Shown: positions 8,070 to 37,176 of the stretch, piece by piece | Layout of the letters: each line of letters begins with the position of its first letter | How positions within the stretch are numbered: the first letter of the stretch is position 1 | Origin: an uncultured Bacteroidota bacterium | GTDB lineage: Bacteria > Bacteroidota > Bacteroidia > B-17B0 > Aurantibacillaceae | Length of the DNA stretch: 64,000 nt | Direction of reading: 5' to 3' | NCBI GenBank assembly: GCA_937873155.1 | Contig: CALMVZ010000035.1 | Span: 1 to 64,000, forward strand | Position numbers and translations under genes: made by a program | The notes under the pieces: generated by a model | Told to the model about the DNA's origin: nothing | The model's input: the letters and a program-made list of their open reading frames with translations, nothing else | Databases searched by the model: none

Positions 8070-8179
8070 GGCTTAGCAGTAAATAAAATTTATTTTCAAA
8101 ACAATATCTTCGAAGAGAGTACTCATTAAAAAAACATTTCGTTTCTAAAAACCTCACCATCCCGGCTGGCCGGGACTTG

Positions 8180-8195
8180 CTCTCCTCAAGGAGAG
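8180..8195 (-). repeat. REP-like element, half copy
   Basis: CTCTCCTCAAGGAGAG is a perfect palindrome matching the first hairpin of the neighbouring repeat family. It ends about 10 bases before the stop of the HNH gene and could also act as a weak terminator. Confidence 0.4.
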
Positions 8196-8205
8196 AAGAA
8201 TTCCT

Positions 8206-8538
8206 CTATTGCTTTTTCGGGGTGCTCAAAGGAGCAAGTACAGAACATTTCCAGTCTAAACGGTTCTCTTTTGCCATATTATGTTTCCAGAATAAGACCT
8301 GGAGATTTTCCGGTTCATCCCCTCCTCCATTTGTAACAGGGTTGATATGATCTATCTCCCAACCGTAATTAGAGCTCCGGTTGCCGTGTTCATCCCATTT
8401 AATATGTTTGCCGCAAAGATCAACTCTCCATTCTTCTTTCGAAAAACCTTCGCGCTCTTTTGCTTTTGCCCAAACTTCTTTCAAAACTTTAAGCGACCAT
8501 GGATCTCCGTTCTTATCTGTATTGTGCCTTCTTTCCAT
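8206..8538 (-). CDS. HNH endonuclease domain protein
   Basis: A 110-residue protein with a compact HNH nuclease motif in its second half: WEIDHINPVTNGGGDEPENL (Asp-His, Asn) followed by FWKHNMAKENR (His). A Cys-Gly-Lys pair (DLCGKHI) lies before it, but no full zinc knuckle is visible. HNH domains cut DNA, but isolated ones of this size also occur as general accessory proteins. It follows the DUF1801 gene by 9 bases on the same strand and is surrounded by palindromic repeats, which suggests an accessory location. Target and role are unknown. Confidence 0.8.
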   Translation of the reverse strand: MERRHNTDKNGDPWSLKVLKEVWAKAKEREGFSKEEWRVDLCGKHIKWDEHGNRSSNYGWEIDHINPVTNGGGDEPENLQVLFWKHNMAKENRLDWKCSVLAPLSTPKKQ

Positions 8539-9263: not shown

Positions 9264-9437
9264 TAAAAGATATGTTTAGTGGGGTTGTTGATCACCGCTT
9301 TGTCAGGTTGGCATTACGGACATTCAGAAATATGGATATTTCCCAACCTTCTGTCCATAACCAACGAAATGGTAGGCGAGTCTGTTATCCGTTGAACGGT
9401 CGTTAATTAATTCCACTAAACGTTCTTAAACTTTTTG

Positions 9438-22986: not shown

Positions 22987-25302
22987 TTAATTGATCATTT
23001 TTTTATAGTCTGTATTCAACTCATATCTGCCTTTTGCATATTTGAGAAACTGGCCTAAGGTATCTACATTATGTTTGCTCATCATTTTGGGATGCGAAAT
23101 AAAATGCATGAAGTCATTTTCATCCACAAAATCTTCGTAGGCTTTTTTTGTAAAGTAGGTCATTAATTCAACCGAAACCATTTCTTTTTTGTCTGCTGTT
23201 TCCCAGTCAAAATTCTGGATCTTACGTATAACACTTGCTTCCCCGTCAACTGCACTGAAACCATCTCCAAAGCTTCTCCGGTTCGTATACCACATGTATT
23301 TGTGAAGGAAACGGTTCAGGAACCGGTTGCGGTTACTATTGTTCAGTGTGCTTATTACAAATTCTTTGAAAGGCCCGTTAACATCGGTCTTTTCAACTTC
23401 ATTCGAAAAAGAATAAATGTTCTGCAAAGGTATCTTTGAAAAATCATAAAAAATATTTTTGCCTTGCATCTTAAAGCCGCGCAAAGCCGAAAAATCATTT
23501 ACGAGACCATATTTTTCAAAATGCGGACGGAGTTCAGAAAAAGGCTGCAGGCACCAGCCGCCCGCCCTGTACGAATCGACCGGATAATCAACTCCTGCTT
23601 CTTTCTTTAGCTGGTTTATCAGATCAATTGAAAAAGAAAATAATTCGTCTCGCTCTTTTTCAGGGATCACATGTAAACGGTAATATTCTGCCGATTCCAA
23701 ACGCCATTGATCCAGTTTTTTATCATACACAGCATCACGCCAGTGCGGATGTAAATGCGGAAATATGTAATGACCGTCTTTCAAAACTTCTGTCAGTTGG
23801 TTTTTGATGAGGCGGAGATCTTCTTTGCATTCAGCTTCATTGCTTTCGGTTAATTTTTTGAGATAGGTCGTATCAACGAAGAAGATCGCTTTCTTAAAAT
23901 TATTTTCCCTGAAAATATTCAATAACAATGCAGTAGGTTTAAGGATACAATTCTTTGCTGTTCCGCTTCTTTTCCCGAGGTACAATTCATAATCAAAGGT
24001 AAGAAGAACATTACGTTCGTTAATTGCATTCTTTACAGGAAGCGGCTCTTCAATAATATCAGAAAGTTGGTTTGTGATATGAGGAATAGAAAAAGTTCTT
24101 ATATCAAAGGCTGAATCCCAGTGATAGGCTTTTTCGTTAAGGGTTGCAAGGATGATGCTTTTTAGGTCGACCAATGCATTTTCAGGGTCTACCCAATAAC
24201 CGAGTTGGTTCTTTACTATGAATTCAGATGCTGCACCTTTGTGAGAAACAACTACTATCTTTTTCTTCTGTGAAATATATTCACAAAACTTTGTACTCAA
24301 AGCGAAATTGTATACATCGTTCAGGAATAACATACAATAGTGAGCGTTGGCGATCCTTGAATAAACCCCATTGAGATCGAGCGAACCTGTGAATTTAAAG
24401 ATCTCGTTGACTTTATTTTCATTTACCAGGGAAAGGTATTTCTCAGGAAAACGGCCGATGAATTCAAACTCTAGTTTATTGAAGAGATCCGGATCTGATA
24501 TCTTCAAAGCTGCCAGTGTTTTTACAAAAGGCTCAATGATGTAGCCTAAATTAATATAAAGTGTTCCTGTAAAAACAAATTTTATTTTATCCTCAGCTAT
24601 CTTTTGCGTGAGATCCAAACCTTCAAAATCTTCAGGGTCATAACCGTTCGGTATCACTTCGAATTTTTTCTGAATGGTAAGCGAACTGAAATAATTATTC
24701 AGATCGTTGGCAACACTGATTACTTTGTCAGCTAAAAGAACTGTTTGCTTCTCATAGCGCTTCTCAACTATCTTCCTGTCTAACGGCAAACTGGTAAATG
24801 ATGAGATCTCGACATCTTCAGTCCAGAGATCGCGGAAATCAACTAAAAATTTTATACTTGGAAATTTATGTTTTAGTTTTACAACGTAATTCGATAAACG
24901 GAACGGCCCGGATGTAACAATAACACAATCGATCTTTTTCTCTGAAATAAGCCGGGCCACCTCATTGTTTATTTGCTTTTCCCAAAAAATCGACCGGTCG
25001 AAAAAATTTCCTTTATCGAGCAGCTTCAGTAAATTGAGATTAAAAAAATAAAGTGCTTTATTGAAGAGATCATTTTTAGGGAACGCTATGCTTTTCGGAA
25101 AATTATAGGGCAATGAAATTACTTTGATGCCCTCTATGTCTTTATTCCAGGCAGATTCTTCCTTAGTTACATTCTCGGCCGCTATCACGGTAATATCATG
25201 GCCCATCCGCTTCAGGTACTTGGCAAACTTAGCCCATCTCCGGCCGCCAATACCTGATGTTGGAGGAAATAAATGAGATATGATGAGAATGTTTTTGCCC
25301 AT
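22987..25302 (-). CDS. fusion: GT4-like glycosyltransferase plus polysaccharide deacetylase-like domain
   Basis: 771 residues. Residues 1 to about 415 form a GT4-like glycosyltransferase (ISHLFPPTSGIGGRRWAKFA, VDFRDLWTED, FTGTLYINLGYIIEPF, STKFCEYISQKKKIVVV). From about residue 430 a second domain begins NVLLTFDYELYLGKRSGT and continues with FPHLHPHWRDA and YRAGGWCLQPFSELR, which resembles the CE4/NodB deacetylase-like fold with Asp and His metal ligands. The combination could couple sugar addition with deacetylation of the same glycan. It is the first gene of the six-gene glycan unit, 79 bases after asnB. Its GT half is a paralogue of the protein at 20615-21880. Confidence 0.85.
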   Translation of the reverse strand: MGKNILIISHLFPPTSGIGGRRWAKFAKYLKRMGHDITVIAAENVTKEESAWNKDIEGIKVISLPYNFPKSIAFPKNDLFNKALYFFNLNLLKLLDKGNFFDRSIFWEKQINNEVARLISEKKIDCVIVTSGPFRLSNYVVKLKHKFPSIKFLVDFRDLWTEDVEISSFTSLPLDRKIVEKRYEKQTVLLADKVISVANDLNNYFSSLTIQKKFEVIPNGYDPEDFEGLDLTQKIAEDKIKFVFTGTLYINLGYIIEPFVKTLAALKISDPDLFNKLEFEFIGRFPEKYLSLVNENKVNEIFKFTGSLDLNGVYSRIANAHYCMLFLNDVYNFALSTKFCEYISQKKKIVVVSHKGAASEFIVKNQLGYWVDPENALVDLKSIILATLNEKAYHWDSAFDIRTFSIPHITNQLSDIIEEPLPVKNAINERNVLLTFDYELYLGKRSGTAKNCILKPTALLLNIFRENNFKKAIFFVDTTYLKKLTESNEAECKEDLRLIKNQLTEVLKDGHYIFPHLHPHWRDAVYDKKLDQWRLESAEYYRLHVIPEKERDELFSFSIDLINQLKKEAGVDYPVDSYRAGGWCLQPFSELRPHFEKYGLVNDFSALRGFKMQGKNIFYDFSKIPLQNIYSFSNEVEKTDVNGPFKEFVISTLNNSNRNRFLNRFLHKYMWYTNRRSFGDGFSAVDGEASVIRKIQNFDWETADKKEMVSVELMTYFTKKAYEDFVDENDFMHFISHPKMMSKHNVDTLGQFLKYAKGRYELNTDYKKMIN

Positions 25303-30585: not shown

Positions 30586-30613
30586 ACCCAACCTTTACGT
30601 ATTACCATACGTA
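30586..30613 (+). promoter_or_regulatory. ECF-type promoter site 1 (sigma factor gene)
   Basis: ACCCAACC (30586-30593) and CGTA (30610-30613) are separated by 16 bases. The AAC plus CGT pairing is the usual look of ECF sigma promoters. The CGT begins 30 bases before the sigma gene ATG, so it points to autoregulation. Four more sites with the same geometry follow in the next 7 kb. Confidence 0.7.
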
Positions 30614-30639
30614 CTCATTAATAGAACAAACCATTCCAA

Positions 30640-31206
30640 ATGATCGTTCGGCCTAACCTTATAAAAGAATGCATTAACCGTAACAGGAAGGCTGAATATG
30701 AATTGTATAAAGTGACGTATAGTTATTTAATGAGTATTTGCATCCGTTACACCAAGAACCAGGACCAGGCTAAAGAACAGCTTAACATGGGCTTTTTAAA
30801 GATACTGAACAATCTTGAAAAATACAGCGAGGAAGTTCCTTTCAAGGCGTGGATCCGCAAGATCATGATCAATACTCTTATTGATGAATACAGGAAACAC
30901 AAAAAACAAAGTGAGGTAATTGATTTCGTTGATGAATATTATGAAACGAGCAGTTACTCGGAACAAAATACGGCACTTGATAAAATAAGTACTGACCAGA
31001 TCCATACGCTTATTTCGAAATTACCGCCTATGGCACAACAGGTATTCAACATGTTTGTGGTGGATGGTTATTCGCATAAAGAGATCGGAGAAATTTTAGG
31101 AATTGAAGAGGGCACTTCAAAATGGCACTTAAATTCTGCCCGACAGAAATTAAAAGAAATGTTAGAACACTTAGTAACACCCGCTAAACTACAACACCAT
31201 GGTTGA
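30640..31206 (+). CDS. ECF RNA polymerase sigma factor
   Basis: 188 residues with sigma region 2 (YSYLMSICIRYTKNQDQAKE, FLKILNNLEKY) and region 4 (LPPMAQQVFNMFVVDGYSHK, EIGEILGIEEGTSKWHLNSA with the recognition helix). No region 3 is present, as for ECF group sigma factors. It should direct RNA polymerase to special promoters; the repeated ACCCAAC-N17-CGT motif is the obvious candidate. Its last bases overlap the next gene start (ATGGTTGA), so sigma and anti-sigma are translationally coupled. The upstream copy of the motif suggests positive feedback. Confidence 0.92.
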   Translation: MIVRPNLIKECINRNRKAEYELYKVTYSYLMSICIRYTKNQDQAKEQLNMGFLKILNNLEKYSEEVPFKAWIRKIMINTLIDEYRKHKKQSEVIDFVDEYYETSSYSEQNTALDKISTDQIHTLISKLPPMAQQVFNMFVVDGYSHKEIGEILGIEEGTSKWHLNSARQKLKEMLEHLVTPAKLQHHG

Positions 31207-32788
31207 TTTTGACAAATTTGAAAAGAATGTAAAGGACAATTACGGCAATCAGCAGTTCCCGTTTGATGAAGCAAATTGGGAGAAGGCCGCTAAACTGATA
31301 GATGCATCGCGCAAAGGAAAGAACCGCGGCGGTATCTTCTTTTTATCAGCAGTAGCCATATTGTGCACCTCCGGCCTTGTTTATTATTTTGGTTTTAGCG
31401 ACAGTTCGAACGCCCTGAAAGGAAAGGATATTGCAATTAACCAGGTTGTAACGGAACAACAGACTATAAATTCCGGTAATTCAAGTCCGGCTTCAACTGA
31501 GAATACACCTGTTTCAGGTAACGAGGAGAATACTAAACTTTCAAATGGTTCTTCAGCTTCAAATGAAACAACGAATGATAACAGCACTATTACTAATTCT
31601 TCGGTTTCAAAAAATAAATTAAAAAATAATAAACCTTCTTCTTTAAATACTTCTGTAAATTCTGCTGCTACTAAAACTGCTGATAATAACACTTCTTCAC
31701 ATAACGAAACAAAGTCTGAAGAAAAAACAACGTCTACCCCATCGACAACAAATTCTGAAACTAAAGCAAATTCAACCGCTGCAAATACTAAACCAAAGAA
31801 TAATACCAATAACACGCCTGCAAAATCAACTCCGAATAAGAACACTACCCCTCCTGTTTTAGGAAGCAATAATTCTGCTCAAACTCCTAAAACAGTTATA
31901 GAACCTAACGTTGCAGGAACCGGCGGTAATTCAGAAAAATCAGGAACGCCTTCAAATGAAAATAAAACCGTTGTTATTAAAACGAATCCTGTTGCAACAG
32001 ATTCTTCTTCGAATGTTGTAACGGCAACAGTTAAGCCGACTGAAAGCGTAGTTGATTCTGTTCCGCCAATGCGGAAATCACGCGCCGATTCTCTGGCAGC
32101 AATGATGCCTAAAGGCGATGGCGTTTCTTATGCTACAAACGTAAAAGATAAACCTAATGCTAAAAACATCCTCTTCTTAGAAGCAGGTACAACCTATTTA
32201 TTAGGATGGAACGGCGGCGGAAAAAATGAAGCCGGTGGTTTTAATGTATTGGCAGGGGTAAACTTCCAGCACTTCTTTACAGGTGCTATCGGAGCACAGA
32301 TCGGGATACAATATAATACCATAAGTAATTTAACCAATAGCACTCATACCATAAGCACAGTTAAATATGACTTTGGCATGGAACAAGATGTGACAGAAAT
32401 TAAATATCAGAAATTACATTATCTGGTTGCGCCGGTACGTTTAACTTACGTACATAAAGATAATACATTCAGTATCGGAGCTAACGTGGCTTATTTATTG
32501 AACAGCGACAGTAAAAAAGAAAAGTATAAAACATACAGCAGTGATCCGAATGCTAATAAAAAAGATCTGACATCGACCAAAGAAACTGGTTATGTAAAAG
32601 GATTCAATCCTTATGATGTTCAGTTGGCATTAGGATACAAAAGAAAGATCTATAAAGGACTAAGCGCCGGCGCTGATGTGTTTTATGGTTTAACTGACAC
32701 TAAAGATAACAGCTTCTTTAAATCTAACGCTTTCGACAGGAACGTTGGTGTTAAAGTGAGTTTGTGTTACGATTTATTCAAAAAATAA
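31199..32788 (+). CDS. putative dual membrane-spanning anti-sigma factor (Dma-type)
   Basis: 529 residues with four zones. Residues 1-43 are a charged cytoplasmic segment (FPFDEANWEKAAKLIDASRK). Residues 45-65 form one transmembrane helix (IFFLSAVAILCTSGLVYYFG). Residues about 66-320 are a disordered Ser/Thr/Asn/Lys-rich linker long enough to cross the periplasm. From about 322 a beta-barrel-like domain follows (NILFLEAGTTYLLGW ... VKVSLCYDLFKK). No signal peptide is present. This is the layout reported for Dma anti-sigma factors of Bacteroides thetaiotaomicron, which span both membranes and hold a partner ECF sigma. The gene overlaps that of the sigma factor by 8 bases. The assignment rests on architecture and context; the short N terminus would have to bind the sigma. 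An ordinary barrel protein with an N-terminal anchor is the alternative. Confidence 0.75.
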   Translation: MVDFDKFEKNVKDNYGNQQFPFDEANWEKAAKLIDASRKGKNRGGIFFLSAVAILCTSGLVYYFGFSDSSNALKGKDIAINQVVTEQQTINSGNSSPASTENTPVSGNEENTKLSNGSSASNETTNDNSTITNSSVSKNKLKNNKPSSLNTSVNSAATKTADNNTSSHNETKSEEKTTSTPSTTNSETKANSTAANTKPKNNTNNTPAKSTPNKNTTPPVLGSNNSAQTPKTVIEPNVAGTGGNSEKSGTPSNENKTVVIKTNPVATDSSSNVVTATVKPTESVVDSVPPMRKSRADSLAAMMPKGDGVSYATNVKDKPNAKNILFLEAGTTYLLGWNGGGKNEAGGFNVLAGVNFQHFFTGAIGAQIGIQYNTISNLTNSTHTISTVKYDFGMEQDVTEIKYQKLHYLVAPVRLTYVHKDNTFSIGANVAYLLNSDSKKEKYKTYSSDPNANKKDLTSTKETGYVKGFNPYDVQLALGYKRKIYKGLSAGADVFYGLTDTKDNSFFKSNAFDRNVGVKVSLCYDLFKK

Positions 32789-32815
32789 TCCTTCGTCCTG
32801 AGCTTGCCGAAGGAT
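32788..32815. repeat. REP-like palindrome ATCCTTCG...CGAAGGAT
   Basis: An inverted repeat with arms of 8 bases and loop TCCTGAGCTTGC, starting at the last base of the anti-sigma stop codon. Short relatives of CTGAGC(T/C)TG(C/T)CGAAG also occur at 15513 (inverted) and 38230. Confidence 0.6.
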
Positions 32816-32852
32816 CAGGATGATAAACAATATTAAGAATAAGAAAAAAGAA

Positions 32853-33974
32853 ATGAAAACACGTGTACTGATCACAACATTAACGTTAGCCGCTTTAATT
32901 TTTAGCTGTAAAAAGAAAGAGTTACCTGTTGCCGAAGAGGGAAATTCACCTCAATTCTATTTTACCGGTAAGGTAAATGGCTCTGATGTTATGTTAGAGG
33001 CCGGTGTAAATGATTATTACATGTTTTCAGGGTATACACAAAATTCAACAACGAATGTTTACGGATTTAAAGCGGCGTTAAAACAAAATAATTGTACAAC
33101 GTGCAACAATAGTATCGAAATCGAGATCAACGATCATCGTTATAGTACTTATAATGGCCCATCAGGAATAGACTCTGCTTTTCAATCTACTTTCTATCCG
33201 TATTGTATGGGGAGCTGGGCGCCTGTTTCATACAGCGTATCGTATTATCCGATCTTTAACAATTCGCCTATAAGTTACTTATGGAATTGGGGTGATGGCG
33301 ACACCTCATCTGCTCCGATTGGTACACATGTTTACAGGCATTCAGGTAATTACAATGTTAGTTTAACTATTGTAGATCAGTTTTCGTGTACCAATTCAGT
33401 AAGCAATATGCAAACGGTTGGTCTTTCTGATAACTCATGTCAAACCACAATTACTGTAACATCGACTTCCACTTTAAATGCAACCTATTCACATTCTACA
33501 ATCGGCACTCCTCCGTATAATTTCTTATGGGATTTTGGTGACGCTTCCCCTACTTCAACTTTAACTACGCCTTCCCATACATATGCTTCACAAGGCCGCT
33601 ATCCTGTTTCATTACGTGTTATCGACGCTGCGAATGATACCGCATTTGCCAATGTAAATTATGTGACCTCGGGAAGTAATATGTGTACAACAAATTATCT
33701 TAAATTAGGTGATGGGGGCGTATTTAACGGTGATGGCCGATCGAACGTTATTATTAAGTGGACAGATTCGAACGGAACCGTATATACTTCTAATCATACC
33801 TCACAACCAACAAGTAGTTATTTTAAGATCCTTGGGGTAAGTGATTATCATACCAATGAGAACGGACAAAAGACAAAAAAACTACACGTACAGTTCAAAT
33901 GTATGGTATATAATGGCTCTGCAAGTATGCTCATCGAGAACGGTAAAGCTGTTGTTGTAGTGGCCTATAAATAA
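32853..33974 (+). CDS. PKD-domain lipoprotein
   Basis: 373 residues from the ATG at 32853 (MKTRVLITTLTLAALIFSC, lipobox IFSC); the frame opens at 32820, but the 11 extra residues come before a normal signal. Two PKD-type Ig folds are seen: ISYLWNWGDGDTSSAPIGTH and PYNFLWDFGDASPTSTLTTP. It has no T9SS sorting domain, so it should stay attached to the membrane by lipid. It is 64 bases behind the anti-sigma gene with no promoter of its own visible, so it probably belongs to the same operon. The cysteines (CTTCNN) near residue 83-86 may form disulphides. Ligand and role are unknown. Confidence 0.75.
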   Translation: MKTRVLITTLTLAALIFSCKKKELPVAEEGNSPQFYFTGKVNGSDVMLEAGVNDYYMFSGYTQNSTTNVYGFKAALKQNNCTTCNNSIEIEINDHRYSTYNGPSGIDSAFQSTFYPYCMGSWAPVSYSVSYYPIFNNSPISYLWNWGDGDTSSAPIGTHVYRHSGNYNVSLTIVDQFSCTNSVSNMQTVGLSDNSCQTTITVTSTSTLNATYSHSTIGTPPYNFLWDFGDASPTSTLTTPSHTYASQGRYPVSLRVIDAANDTAFANVNYVTSGSNMCTTNYLKLGDGGVFNGDGRSNVIIKWTDSNGTVYTSNHTSQPTSSYFKILGVSDYHTNENGQKTKKLHVQFKCMVYNGSASMLIENGKAVVVVAYK

Positions 33975-34010
33975 TGACTCGGAACTCACCACAAGTTTTT
34001 TTTAATGAAT

Positions 34011-34038
34011 ACCCAACCTTTTAAAATTACCTGCCGTA
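34011..34038 (+). promoter_or_regulatory. ECF-type promoter site 2 (short unit)
   Basis: ACCCAACC (34011-34018) and CGTA (34035-34038), 16-base spacer, same geometry as site 1. It is followed by GGTTTTATAAG, similar to the sequence after site 3. No gene start lies at the expected distance. Confidence 0.65.
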
Positions 34039-34043
34039 ATGGT

Positions 34044-34119
34044 TTTATAAGTGAATAAGACGCTTGTTTAGCAATAAACACGCAGAAAAAAGCAGCTTTT
34101 GGGATGGGGCTGCTTTTTT
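34044..34119 (+). ncRNA. candidate short RNA from ECF site 2
   Basis: Start is estimated a few bases after the CGTA at 34035-34038; the end is the terminator at 34086-34119. The product would be roughly 75 nt. The only frame is a GTG followed by five codons and a stop (GTGAATAAGACGCTTGTTTAG is near that point), so a peptide is unlikely. It may be a small RNA or a cassette that lost its gene. Confidence 0.35.
34086..34119 (+). terminator. terminator A (short unit 1)
   Basis: AAAAAAGCAGC and GCTGCTTTTTT pair around a loop of 12 bases with GGGATGGG. The same loop and T tract recur at 34389-34422. Confidence 0.8.
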
Positions 34120-34148
34120 CGTTATAAGGAATGAATAGAAGAACATTT

Positions 34149-34222
34149 GAACATCAGAACAATTGAACGTTGAAGTAGCCAGATTCGGGTAAAAACTTCT
34201 TAATTCTATTGTTCTGATGTTC
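34149..34222. repeat. 15-base inverted repeat GAACATCAGAACAAT
   Basis: The exact complement pair at 34149-34163 and 34208-34222 is separated by 44 bases, between the two short units. Related GAACATTTGAAC sequence precedes the left arm. It may be REP-like; transcription through it would fold into a long hairpin. Confidence 0.6.
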
Positions 34223-34278
34223 TATTATTCAATTGTTCACGAAACCGATGATTTTAACAAATAAAATCCCTAACCCCT

Positions 34279-34306
34279 ACCCAACCTTTCCTTTTTTGCC
34301 ACCGTA
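34279..34306 (+). promoter_or_regulatory. ECF-type promoter site 3 (short unit)
   Basis: ACCCAACC (34279-34286) and CGTA (34303-34306), 16-base spacer. The following CGTATAGTTGTATAAG closely resembles the same region of site 5. Confidence 0.65.
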
Positions 34307-34311
34307 TAGTT

Positions 34312-34422
34312 GTATAAGAAAGTCCTTACTTCGACTCATAATATAGCTTAATATAAAAAACGGGGTAAGTTTTGTTAGTTTGTTTTGTAAAAAAGCTGCC
34401 TTTGGGATGGGGCGGCTTTTTT
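34312..34422 (+). ncRNA. candidate short RNA from ECF site 3
   Basis: Start is estimated from the CGTA at 34303-34306 and the end from the terminator at 34389-34422, giving about 110 nt. No ATG-initiated frame of useful length is present. It shares its terminator sequence with short unit 1 but not the body, so a common ancestor followed by body loss or divergence is likely. Confidence 0.35.
34389..34422 (+). terminator. terminator B (short unit 2)
   Basis: AAAAAAGCTGCC pairs with GGCGGCTTTTTT around TTTGGGATG. It is nearly identical to terminator A, including the GGGATGGG loop. Confidence 0.8.
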
Positions 34423-34502
34423 ATTATAATCCCTTTCCTATAGTTACATCGGTTTGTACGTTAATAACAAATTTGAACTTTATTACGGCTTTTGACTCCA
34501 AA

Positions 34503-34530
34503 ACCCAACCTGTTTTGGTTTGTATTCGTT
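34503..34530 (+). promoter_or_regulatory. ECF-type promoter site 4 (PKD T9SS gene)
   Basis: ACCCAACC (34503-34510) and CGTT (34527-34530), 16-base spacer. The CGT begins 29 bases before the ATG at 34556. Confidence 0.65.
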
Positions 34531-34555
34531 ATCTTTAATAAGTAATACATATTGC

Positions 34556-36994
34556 ATGAAAAAAACTCTACTTATTTTATCAGCTTTATTCTTAACCTTT
34601 TTAGTTAAGTCGCAATGTAATGCGGGTTTTGTTCTGACGCAGAATGCCGGAGGTAATGTTACTTTTACGAGTACTTCTACCGGTACAAACACTTCTACTT
34701 ATTATCAATGGAATTTCGGTGATGCCACAAATTGGAACGGATCAGGCCTTACTAATGTTTCCCATACTTATCCAACCAACGGTAATTATACGATCACCTT
34801 AACTATTTCTAATTTTTCTTTGTGTACAAGCACATCTACTCAGGTTATCAGCGTAACGAATTCACCTTGTACTGTTGCGATTAATTCTTCATTTACTTTC
34901 ACCACAGGCGCAGGTGGTAATGTTAATTTTACAAGCACATCAACCGGTACAAATGTAAGTTCAACGTATTTATGGAATTTCGGTGATGGAAATACCACTA
35001 CTGTAATGAACCCTTCACATACTTACACCAGTAATGGTAATTTTTTAGTGTATTTAAGTGTTGCTAACGGAGCATGTACTGACAGCTCCTGGTCGAATGT
35101 TCCTGTTTCAACTGCACCTTGTAGTTTAACCCCGAGCTTTACTTTTTCGAATACATCAAGCGGACAATATTATTTCGTGAGCACGTCAACCGGAACTACA
35201 TCCGGAACAACTTATTCATGGGATTTTGGCGACGGCAGTCCTTTTGGAACCTTTAACCCTATCTACCATAATTACGTAGCGAATGGAACATATACTGTTA
35301 CTTTATATCTCACCAATCCATCTGCAAGTGTAACAACATGTACGGCAAGTGTATCAAATACAGTATTGGTTTCAACTACTCCATGTACAGCCGGGGTCAA
35401 TGCTTCTTTCACATTTACTAATACAGGAGGTGGTAATGTCAACTTTACCAGTACATCAACAGGGACAACCGTAAGTTCAATTTATCAATGGAATTTTGGT
35501 GACGGGAATACAAGTACCACAATGAATCCGTCACATACGTATACTGCCAATGGTAATTTTGGGGTTATGTTATCGGTAAGCAATAGCTCTGTTTGTGCAG
35601 ATAGTGCCTATCAAAATGTTCCTATTACTACTTTACCTTGTACCCTCACGCCAAGTTTTACGTATTCAAATACATCGAGCGGGCAATTCTATTTTGTGAG
35701 TACTTCAACGGGGACCAGCAGCAGCACTGCATATACATGGGATTTTGGTGATGGTAATTTTGGCTATACAAATCCGGTTTATCATACTTATGCTTCCAAC
35801 GGAACTTATACTGTTATTTTGTACCTGAATAACACATTCACAACATCAAGTACATGTACAGCTTCTACAAGTCAAACTGTTTTAGTTTCAACCTCACCTT
35901 GTACAACAGCAGTTAACGCTTCCTTTACATTTACCAATACTGGAGGTGGTAATGTCAATTTTACGAGTACATCGACCGGCACCACTGCAGGCTCAACTTA
36001 TCTGTGGAATTTTGGTGATGGGAATACCGGTACAACCATGAATCCTTCCAATACTTATACTGTGAATGGTAATTATAATGTTTATTTAAAAGTCACGAAC
36101 GGAACTTGTGCAGATAGTGTGTGGAATAGTGTCATGATCTCAACTTTACCTTGTAGTATAACACCGAGCTTTACATATTCAAACTCATCAAGCGGACAAC
36201 TTTATTTCACAAGTACATCTACAGGAGTTGGCCCGGGTGCATCTTATTATTGGGATTTTGGTGATATGAGTTATGGATTTACGAATCCGATCTATCATAC
36301 TTATGCTTCTAACGGAAGTTACAGCGTAACTTTAGTGGTGACAAATACACCTTCTTCATCAGCTTGTTCGGCTTCTGTAACTATTCCGGTTACTATTACA
36401 ACTACATCATGTGTTGCTAATCCAAGTTTCTATTTAGCGAAGAGTACTAGTACAACAACTAATTTATGGTTTGCTTACCCGACCTATCCGGCAAATATTA
36501 CAAATGCATTCTGGGATTGGGGTGATGCAACAAGCAGTACAGGATTATACCCTTCACACATTTATGCTTCAACGGGGTGGTATAACATTTGTTTGACTGT
36601 AACAGTTAATTGTGTAGCTACAGGATCAATGTGTGTTATGTCTAATATTTACAGGGTACAGGCAGAAGCAGGTGCCGCAGGAATTGCACAGATAAATGTT
36701 ATAAATACAGCCGTTGGTGTCCAGGAATTAAAATCTAACAATGGCGGATTCAGTATTTATCCGAATCCGAATCATGGTATGTTCAGTTTAGCATTAGATC
36801 CTTCTTATAATAATGAAGCTTCGGGTGTAATAGTTTACAATATGCTTGGAGAAGTTATTTATACAGCGAAATACGAACGAAATGAAGGCTTAATTAAAGA
36901 GATAGATCTGGGTCATATACCAAGCGGTGCTTATTTTATGCAATTAAATACAGCTAAAGGTAATTTCTCTAAAAAACTAATAATTAATAAGTAG
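34556..36994 (+). CDS. secreted eight-PKD repeat protein with T9SS sorting domain
   Basis: 812 residues from the ATG at 34556 (signal peptide MKKTLLILSALFLTFLVKSQ). An in-frame TTG at 34520 lies upstream of the promoter CGTT and is excluded. Eight PKD-type repeats follow, each with a (W)(N/D)FGD core. They form alternating A (GGGNVNFTSTSTGT, WNFGDGN) and B (SSGQ(F/Y/L)YF, WDFGD) units, and the A-B pair of about 170 residues is repeated three times with high similarity. The last 80 residues are a T9SS type A sorting domain (YPNPNHGMFSLAL ... SGAYFMQLNTAKG). It should be exported across the outer membrane and anchored or released there. It belongs to the ECF regulon by its promoter. Confidence 0.88.
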   Translation: MKKTLLILSALFLTFLVKSQCNAGFVLTQNAGGNVTFTSTSTGTNTSTYYQWNFGDATNWNGSGLTNVSHTYPTNGNYTITLTISNFSLCTSTSTQVISVTNSPCTVAINSSFTFTTGAGGNVNFTSTSTGTNVSSTYLWNFGDGNTTTVMNPSHTYTSNGNFLVYLSVANGACTDSSWSNVPVSTAPCSLTPSFTFSNTSSGQYYFVSTSTGTTSGTTYSWDFGDGSPFGTFNPIYHNYVANGTYTVTLYLTNPSASVTTCTASVSNTVLVSTTPCTAGVNASFTFTNTGGGNVNFTSTSTGTTVSSIYQWNFGDGNTSTTMNPSHTYTANGNFGVMLSVSNSSVCADSAYQNVPITTLPCTLTPSFTYSNTSSGQFYFVSTSTGTSSSTAYTWDFGDGNFGYTNPVYHTYASNGTYTVILYLNNTFTTSSTCTASTSQTVLVSTSPCTTAVNASFTFTNTGGGNVNFTSTSTGTTAGSTYLWNFGDGNTGTTMNPSNTYTVNGNYNVYLKVTNGTCADSVWNSVMISTLPCSITPSFTYSNSSSGQLYFTSTSTGVGPGASYYWDFGDMSYGFTNPIYHTYASNGSYSVTLVVTNTPSSSACSASVTIPVTITTTSCVANPSFYLAKSTSTTTNLWFAYPTYPANITNAFWDWGDATSSTGLYPSHIYASTGWYNICLTVTVNCVATGSMCVMSNIYRVQAEAGAAGIAQINVINTAVGVQELKSNNGGFSIYPNPNHGMFSLALDPSYNNEASGVIVYNMLGEVIYTAKYERNEGLIKEIDLGHIPSGAYFMQLNTAKGNFSKKLIINK

Positions 36995-37013
36995 TACCTA
37001 AAACAAAAACAAC

Positions 37014-37085
37014 ATGAAAAAGTACATTCTGTCAATAGGGATCATCATTTTTACAATTGTTGCCCTGTTTGTTGGTTTCTCGTAG
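37014..37085 (+). pseudogene. 23-codon signal-peptide remnant of a lipoprotein gene
   Basis: ATG at 37014 opens MKKYILSIGIIIFTIVALFVGFS, then TAG. The lipoprotein at 37202-38173 starts MKKGIASIGIITFIVIALVIGFSCKKK, so the TAG falls exactly where the lipobox Cys should be. Eleven bases later comes an 18-base sequence (37096-37113) identical to the 3' end of the lipoprotein gene (38183-38200), and both lead into a terminator. This looks like a copy that lost its body by internal deletion. A short membrane peptide expressed with the PKD gene cannot be excluded. Confidence 0.65.
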
Positions 37086-37107
37086 AGTGTATCGTTCTAA
37101 AACTTAC

Positions 37108-37139
37108 AAAGCCTCCCCTTGAGCAGGGAGGCTTTTTTA
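37108..37139 (+). terminator. terminator of the PKD unit
   Basis: AAAGCCTCCC (37108-37117) pairs with GGGAGGC plus TTT (37126-37135) around an 8-base loop, followed by six T. It lies 10 bases before the next promoter region. Confidence 0.85.
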
Positions 37140-37148
37140 TTTGCAAGT

Positions 37149-37176
37149 ACCCAACTAGTTATCGGAAGTTAGCGTA
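37149..37176 (+). promoter_or_regulatory. ECF-type promoter site 5 (lipoprotein gene)
   Basis: ACCCAACT (37149-37156) and CGTA (37173-37176), 16-base spacer. The CGT begins 29 bases before the ATG at 37202. CGTATAGTT is identical to site 3. Confidence 0.65.

Follow-up and report, generated by a model that had tools for sequence, protein, structure and literature searches.

A 64,000-nucleotide (nt) stretch of the genome of an uncultured Bacteroidota bacterium (contig CALMVZ010000035.1, positions 1 to 64,000; hereafter the window) carries five copies of a promoter motif around an operon for an extracytoplasmic function (ECF) sigma factor and its anti-sigma factor. The comparison of related genomes makes it likely that this motif, a Dma-type sensor and conserved, terminator-ended RNAs belong to one ECF sigma regulon. 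An autoregulated Dma-type ECF regulon is well supported as a reading of the sequence, and the gene set is probably switched on by a membrane-spanning envelope-stress sensor. Dma/ECF21 systems are already known; the placing of small RNA genes behind a sigma/Dma operon seems to be new.

Promoter motif in the window and its genome

The motif ACCCAAC-N17-CGT occurs in five exact copies in the window, all on the plus strand, against 0.03 expected, and none of 100 shuffles attained five. An earlier note on this DNA had described an ECF promoter motif starting at 30586, 34011, 34279, 34503 and 37149, and each of these starts is an exact copy. The spacing it reported also holds: the C of CGT is 24 bases downstream of the first A in every copy, and the distance from CGT to the ATG is 30 bases for the sigma gene, 29 for the PKD gene linked to the type IX secretion system (T9SS) and 29 for the lipoprotein gene. 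The sites are listed with their scores from the matrix described below.

30586..30612, plus strand: promoter 1, upstream of the sigma gene (predicted autoregulation); exact motif, 22.9 bits; equivalent position in 63 of 80 loci
34011..34037, plus strand: promoter 2, before RNA A; exact motif, 17.5 bits
34279..34305, plus strand: promoter 3, before RNA B; exact motif, 24.8 bits
34503..34529, plus strand: promoter 4, before the PKD/T9SS gene; exact motif, 16.4 bits; C of CGT 29 nt 5′ of the ATG
37149..37175, plus strand: promoter 5, before the lipoprotein gene; exact motif, 12.0 bits; C of CGT 29 nt 5′ of the ATG

The matrix was trained on 59 sites upstream of the sigma gene in other genomes, with five loci of the same genus excluded; it is blind to the window, not to the pattern, as its training sites were picked by the core motif. 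Its top five matches in the window are exactly these five sites, and the next, at 9341, reaches 9.7 bits, which bears out the earlier statement that the window holds no further good copy. Across the bacterium's own genome (4.85 Mb), ten exact copies were found against three for the reversed pattern, five of the ten inside the 6.6-kb cluster.

Conservation of the motif with the sigma gene

A scan of genome contigs yielded 575 confirmed relatives of the sigma factor, and the best 80 were analyzed; near relatives are over-represented among these loci because of that choice, and several are paralogues from one assembly. Loci L056–L075 and L076–L155 have genomes in common, and counts of 80 rest on L076–L155 alone. 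Sigma homologues at E 0.001 or better were present in all 60 related genomes searched, and a close homologue (64–90% identity) in six of the seven other genomes of the genus.

The core motif C[AC]AAC-N17-CGT lies at most 300 bases upstream of the sigma match in 63 of the 80 loci, compared with 69 of 5294 control windows of 310 bases. Five of the 17 loci lacking it (L083, L087, L094, L116 and L122) show CCAAC-N17-TGT, with TGT for CGT and the spacing unchanged. The other 12 are distant (46–55% identity); nine are titled Saprospiraceae or Saprospirales, and L155 offers just 43 upstream bases. At a threshold of at least 14 bits, the matrix found 109 sites on the plus strand and two on the minus strand of the 80 loci, with three, zero and six in three mononucleotide shuffles. 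The plus-strand sites fall upstream of the sigma gene (65), downstream of it (32) or further upstream (12), and 25 of the downstream sites stand 3–4 kb from the sigma start, past the operon.

A stricter pattern gave 55 sites (in 24 genomes) across 80 related genomes, against seven for the reversed control. Thirty sites were read (L005, L156–L184): seven precede the sigma gene, six a terminator-ended stretch and 14 another open reading frame (ORF), and three have no ORF of 40 codons. By eye, 13 of those 14 ORFs begin like secreted proteins or lipoproteins. The contrasts of 63/80 with 69/5294, 55 with 7 and 109 with 2 support the ECF promoter reading of the earlier note. That the motif is the promoter used by the adjacent ECF sigma factor at 30640–31206 is strongly supported by these comparisons, and the ECF sigma gene is predicted to be autoregulated through a promoter with AAC and CGT boxes.

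Sigma factor and Dma-type anti-sigma factor

Three genes make up the operon behind promoter 1.

30640..31206, plus strand: ECF sigma factor, 188 aa; Pfam Sigma70_r2 and Sigma70_r4_2 above cut-off, NCBIfam sigma70-ECF
31199..32788, plus strand: Dma-type anti-sigma factor, 529 aa; Pfam OMP_b-brl_2 (C-terminal), hydrophobic stretch, AlphaFold2, Foldseek
32820..33974, plus strand: third operon gene, PKD-domain protein; Pfam PKD_4 and PKD, lipobox-like start by eye

The sigma product carries sigma regions 2 and 4 only (Pfam), and its ORF overlaps that of the anti-sigma factor. A long ORF directly follows the sigma gene in 74 of 81 loci, the window counted. Its strongest hydrophobic stretch lies at residue 46 in the window and begins at residues 43–68 in 71 of the 74 ORFs; in L140, L141 and L148 it begins at 120–158.

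An AlphaFold2 model of the anti-sigma factor (30 sequences; mean predicted local distance difference test (pLDDT) 64.6; predicted template modelling score (pTM) 0.46) places helices at residues 4–15, 24–39 and 44–66, the last being the membrane helix; the N-terminal helices are of moderate confidence. Residues 67–322 have neither helix nor strand and mostly a pLDDT below 50, as a disordered tether would, and a barrel of high pLDDT occupies 323–528, with OmpA, Ail and NspA among its Foldseek matches. As modeled, the partner of the sigma factor fits the Dma plan of a helical N-terminus, one membrane helix, a disordered tether and a C-terminal outer-membrane barrel. This Dma character was absent from the earlier note.

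Candidate small RNAs behind promoters 2 and 3

Promoters 2 and 3 apparently drive conserved small RNAs, not protein genes; that they precede conserved, ORF-less stretches ending in terminators had been missed.

34044..34122, plus strand: RNA A, predicted small RNA of about 79 nt; start estimated about 7 nt after CGT; terminator hairpin at about 34085–34120
34312..34424, plus strand: RNA B, predicted small RNA of about 113 nt; 5′ stem arms 34325–34333 and 34361–34369; terminator hairpin at about 34387–34424

The sequence features of small RNA genes are present, namely a sigma promoter directly upstream, an own terminator, no ORF and conservation past the terminator. Both stretches end in a strong hairpin with a T run, and their folds reach z scores of −4.85 for RNA A (none of 200 shuffles as good) and −3.20 for RNA B (three of 200). 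The two terminator hairpins share TTTGGGATGGGG, which occurs nowhere else in the window even with one mismatch (0.24 occurrences expected; two of 100 shuffles reach two). Rfam gave no match in the window at gathering thresholds; in eight loci, only a small signal recognition particle (SRP) RNA, lying outside the candidate stretch of L113, and a tRNA in L154 reached threshold. The best weak matches, at 23 and 22.4 bits, are far below it.

In a DNA search of eight genomes of the genus, the bacterium's own included, RNA B matched six. Besides its own genome, it matched G002 (95%) and G004 (90%) over its whole length and G003 (91%) over positions 28–113; G006 and G007 matched in the terminator part alone, and G001 and G005 gave no match. 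In the window and in G002, the RNA B block has the operon on one side and a gene for a class II tRNA ligase on the other. In G003, which is 82% complete and in which a close sigma homologue was not found, the neighbors of RNA B are a PKD/T9SS gene and that ligase gene; in G004 a PKD gene comes after RNA B, and the ligase gene was not seen there. Behind the second site, G001 has another terminator-ended stretch and G005 a protein gene. Counterparts of RNA A are found in L076 (G002) and L077 (G004).

Covariance model R1, built from three species, finds locus L167 of G003, outside its training set, at 93.4 bits (E 1e-15). In a hand-set register that favors pairing, the 5′ stem of L167 differs from that of the window by three two-sided changes and one one-sided change, with nine of nine pairs retained; RNAfold of L167 alone predicts the same pairing. 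The three-sequence RNA B alignment by itself has no pair with a two-sided change, and the nine pairs of the L077 stem require one bulged U, one pair being broken otherwise. On this comparison, four genomes of the genus share a conserved RNA B whose stem shows compensatory changes. Weak R1 matches were obtained for RNA A, L060 and L061 (27–40 bits) and for the terminators of L058/L059/L078 (25.5 bits). We do not claim that RNA A and RNA B are homologous outside the terminator.

The interval between RNA A and RNA B holds, by eye, an imperfect inverted repeat at about 34135–34240 (...GAACATTTGAACATCAGAACAATTGAAC... / ...GTTCTGATGTTC...CAATTGTTC), and G002 and G004 have other repeats there (also by eye).

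A second RNA family in a recurring slot

A different, conserved RNA (family 2), about 100 nt long, stands behind the second promoter in six of the 80 loci (L095, L097, L099, L100, L101 and L105). It contains TCTGTGTT repeats and ends in a terminator, four stem pairs of which show two-sided changes. Model R2 of this family matches 12 of 87 family genomes. Eight matches are strong (71–117 bits), one per genome, all in one genus differing from that of the window, and the same promoter lies directly upstream of the RNA in all eight. The four weakest matches (41.7–42.9 bits), with no promoter found beside them, were taken as chance. Between the boxes of the family-2 promoters, the spacer has a mean majority identity of 62%; only this free spacer is informative in a comparison of boxes and spacer, since the sites were selected by their boxes.

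Behind the dma region, 36 sites of at least 12 bits occur on 30 of the 80 loci. Script and hand reading together place a terminator-ended stretch in 12 loci (L076–L079, L095, L097, L099, L100, L101, L105, L113 and L154); the remaining loci with a second site mostly have an ORF, several of them a PKD-repeat protein by eye. The script tagged ten sites 'sRNA', namely the second sites of L076 and L077 and those of L095, L097, L099, L100, L101, L105, L113 and L154. Four more sites, the first ones in L076 and L077 and those in L078 and L079, received the tag 'ORF' because an ATG lies inside or before the hairpin; by hand they were read as RNAs. The SRP RNA of L113 is further downstream than its candidate stretch.

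Other lineages have either a protein gene behind the second promoter or no such promoter, and the RNA is therefore a lineage-specific filling of a recurring slot. Differing RNAs at one spot in two genera suggest that the slot, not one particular RNA, is what is retained.

Further terminator-ended stretches lie just past the operon in L065, L090 and L107, with a common GTCATAGTGTTTG box and as a possible further RNA family; the promoter matches in L090 and L107 are weak. L113 (about 8138–8262) and L124 (about 4310) have a stretch in common that combines a terminator with a hairpin, possibly covarying (CCAAYTGAAA ... TTYAGTTGG); in L113 this stretch is upstream of the SRP RNA gene.

RNA target scans

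The 12-nt reverse complement of the shared loop had four matches in seven genomes, every one in RNA B itself. The complement of the family-2 seed (11 nt) had 37 matches in eight genomes, compared with 16 for the reversed control, and seven of the 37 lie in the RNAs themselves. Among the loci listed for 30 of the 37, no gene was seen to have a start-proximal site in more than one genome; L206 and L224 have a common seed site within a coding stretch. Four family-2 loci gave no pairing signal with their own sigma or dma start. A duplex scan in which three RNA versions were paired with 29 window-gene start regions (87 tests, without accessibility) reached a best z of −4.1; this pairing, of full-length RNA B with a glycosyltransferase-like ORF starting at 25302 on the minus strand, was not counted as evidence.

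Other genes of the proposed regulon

Two further protein genes lie behind promoters 4 and 5.

34556..36994, plus strand: PKD-repeat protein with a T9SS sorting tail, 812 aa; Pfam PKD_4 (eight stretches) and Por_Secre_tail, TIGR04183
37202..38173, plus strand: putative lipoprotein, 323 aa; lipobox-like start by eye, no Pfam or NCBIfam match

The protein at locus L014 of the same genome, behind a site with one mismatch, is 43% and 40% identical to those at L158 (G068) and L179 (G064), both behind exact sites; these homologous secreted proteins in two genera form a conserved regulon member with a long, 131–175-nt leader. In G000, G002 and G004 the site accompanies a protein that has a T9SS tail (identified as Por_Secre_tail in the G000 copy), and another sigma/anti-sigma pair adjoins it in G000 and G002. 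In the bacterium's own genome, L240:2457-5937 (contig C27) spans a second sigma/anti-sigma pair and, behind it, two secreted proteins in tandem, the first with a confirmed T9SS tail and one motif copy before it.

Very short hydrophobic ORFs were also seen in the regulon: at 37014–37085 in the window (plus strand, 23 codons) and, directly behind a promoter site, in L057 (site at +6690 from the sigma start, 23 codons), L115 (site at +3349, 27 codons) and L118 (site at +3173, 30 codons). Those of the window and L057 end in GFS and resemble the lipoprotein signal peptide cut before its cysteine.

Proposed mechanism and alternatives

Comparison gives the sites with their placement and conservation, the protein architecture and the conserved terminator-ended RNAs; from these we infer sigma binding to the sites, RNA production, a signal and an RNA action as follows. 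The Dma-type anti-sigma factor would reach from the cytoplasm through the inner membrane and along its disordered tether to the outer-membrane barrel, whose end may sample the outer membrane or the surface. A change in the outer membrane would make the Dma N-terminus release the sigma factor. Once freed, the latter would transcribe its own operon (promoter 1), the two small RNAs (promoters 2 and 3), the T9SS-exported PKD surface protein (promoter 4) and the lipoprotein (promoter 5). The RNAs would most likely act by base-pairing and form the repressing arm of the response; because a sigma factor alone can only activate, they would be its means to repress.

Several observations weigh against this scheme. 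The seed and duplex scans found no convincing RNA target. The register of the L167 stem was set by hand; the covariance-model alignment shifts this stem and breaks one pair, and MAFFT also breaks the register. Six of the eight strong R2 matches are training sequences (with identical scores), leaving G068 and G101 as new, and in 43 of the 80 loci the sequence behind the dma region is long enough but holds no second site of at least 12 bits. A longer pattern with up to two mismatches yielded 15 sites in the own genome against 17 for the reversed control, no excess, so that degenerate copies are inseparable from background and only near-perfect sites are trustworthy. Of the five exact copies outside the cluster, two are intergenic and three lie within ORFs.

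The lack of a target would also suit an account in which the ECF regulon is right and the RNA-like stretches are just terminators or leaders (the operon end and an attenuated PKD/T9SS leader) with no trans function. In G001 (L079), the PKD/T9SS gene indeed comes directly after the terminator-ended stretch, and by eye no terminator separates the third gene from promoter 2, which might let the transcript of the operon run on to the RNA A hairpin and end there. We nevertheless regard this account as unlikely. RNA B is conserved well past its terminator (over full length in G002 and G004, over 28–113 in G003, and with a covarying 5′ stem), and the family-2 RNA over about 100 nt, more than a terminator. 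The window PKD gene owns promoter 4, downstream of RNA B, and in G002 and G003 the gene after RNA B is the tRNA ligase gene, not a PKD gene.

The motif might instead be read by another ECF sigma factor, or by several, with the local sigma gene merely one target. The own genome has 17 sigma-like matches, one motif site adjoins another sigma/anti-sigma pair, and PMC9723704 discusses overlapping use of its CGT-box motif by more than one ECF factor. Against this, the motif tracks the local sigma gene in 63 of 80 loci over many genomes, as expected of autoregulation, and the five window sites are grouped at the local sigma operon, which leaves this reading quite improbable. That the motif is an operator of a classical transcription factor or a repeat family, as the three exact own-genome copies within ORFs might suggest, is hardly credible given the invariant 17-base spacing, the orientation bias of 109 to 2, the ATG distance fixed at 29–30 nt in the three gene-linked copies and a spacer that is free between fixed boxes (in sites picked by their boxes).

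Comparison with known systems

The scheme of one sigma regulon with an RNA arm recalls enterobacterial Sigma-E with MicA, RybB and MicL, an envelope-stress sigma factor whose regulon includes repressing small RNAs. The likeness is in design only: the Sigma-E system has another anti-sigma factor and another motif, its RNAs lie apart from the sigma operon and it uses Hfq, and no homology is claimed. By this analogy, we tentatively raise the possibility of a Bacteroidota counterpart of sigma-E/MicA-RybB, in which the released sigma factor might build surface proteins and fast-evolving, operon-adjacent RNAs might shut down existing outer-membrane protein mRNAs.

FopS and GibS of B. thetaiotaomicron are base-pairing small-RNA repressors of SusC-type transporters (PMC11697453). 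Like the present candidates, they are short and combine an unpaired 5′ part with a terminator hairpin; FopS RNAs have housekeeping promoters, unlike the ECF promoter found here (PMC11697453). Bacteroides RNA models gave matches far below threshold only. BTnc353 of B. thetaiotaomicron is predicted to target the anti-sigma gene BT_4721 (PMC10861873), i.e., the reverse direction.

In Flavobacterium psychrophilum, the SM6 promoters have the CGT box of an ECF factor, and their regulon comprises a sigma/anti-sigma operon, T9SS components and one putative regulatory RNA, Rfp11 (PMC9723704). The ECF CGT box, the sigma/anti-sigma operon, the T9SS link and an RNA are thus common to both systems, and an ECF-promoter-driven RNA is not new in the phylum, since Rfp11 is in print. 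The F. psychrophilum regulon concerns T9SS machinery and that of the window T9SS cargo; moreover, Rfp11 (at 182564) and the sigma gene (at 2057098) are not neighbors, unlike the window RNAs (PMC9723704).

No ECF motif was at one time known in B. thetaiotaomicron (PMC7366714), and two ECF factors have since been tied to a different motif (PMC12596196). In the open-licence literature, we found no paper with small RNA genes beside a sigma/Dma operon, or giving the present motif for such an operon. A defined promoter, ACCCAACCTTT-N13-CGT, makes a high-confidence regulon listable in relatives.

Dma anti-sigma factors are a recent description. In B. thetaiotaomicron, the gene of an ECF21 sigma factor adjoins that of Dma in a three-gene operon, and Dma consists of an N-terminal part, one membrane helix, a disordered tether and a C-terminal barrel (PMC13088901). 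The window has the same order of sigma gene and anti-sigma gene, the same protein layout and likewise a three-gene operon; unlike the Dma/Das systems as presented there, it has a PKD gene in third place, promoter sites that lend themselves to listing and RNA genes behind the operon. The passages and discussion of PMC13088901 consulted here describe neither a promoter motif nor an RNA gene for Dma/Das. When Dma2 is lost, its own operon goes up, in line with autoregulation, and several polysaccharide utilization loci go down; whether repression of glycan loci by Das2 is direct or indirect was left open (PMC13088901). RNA genes under an ECF promoter offer a concrete, testable route to such repression. 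For Dma2, where this point was left open, the sigma-E-like RNA arm would, if that tentative reading is true, be a route by which Dma loss can lower transporter expression.

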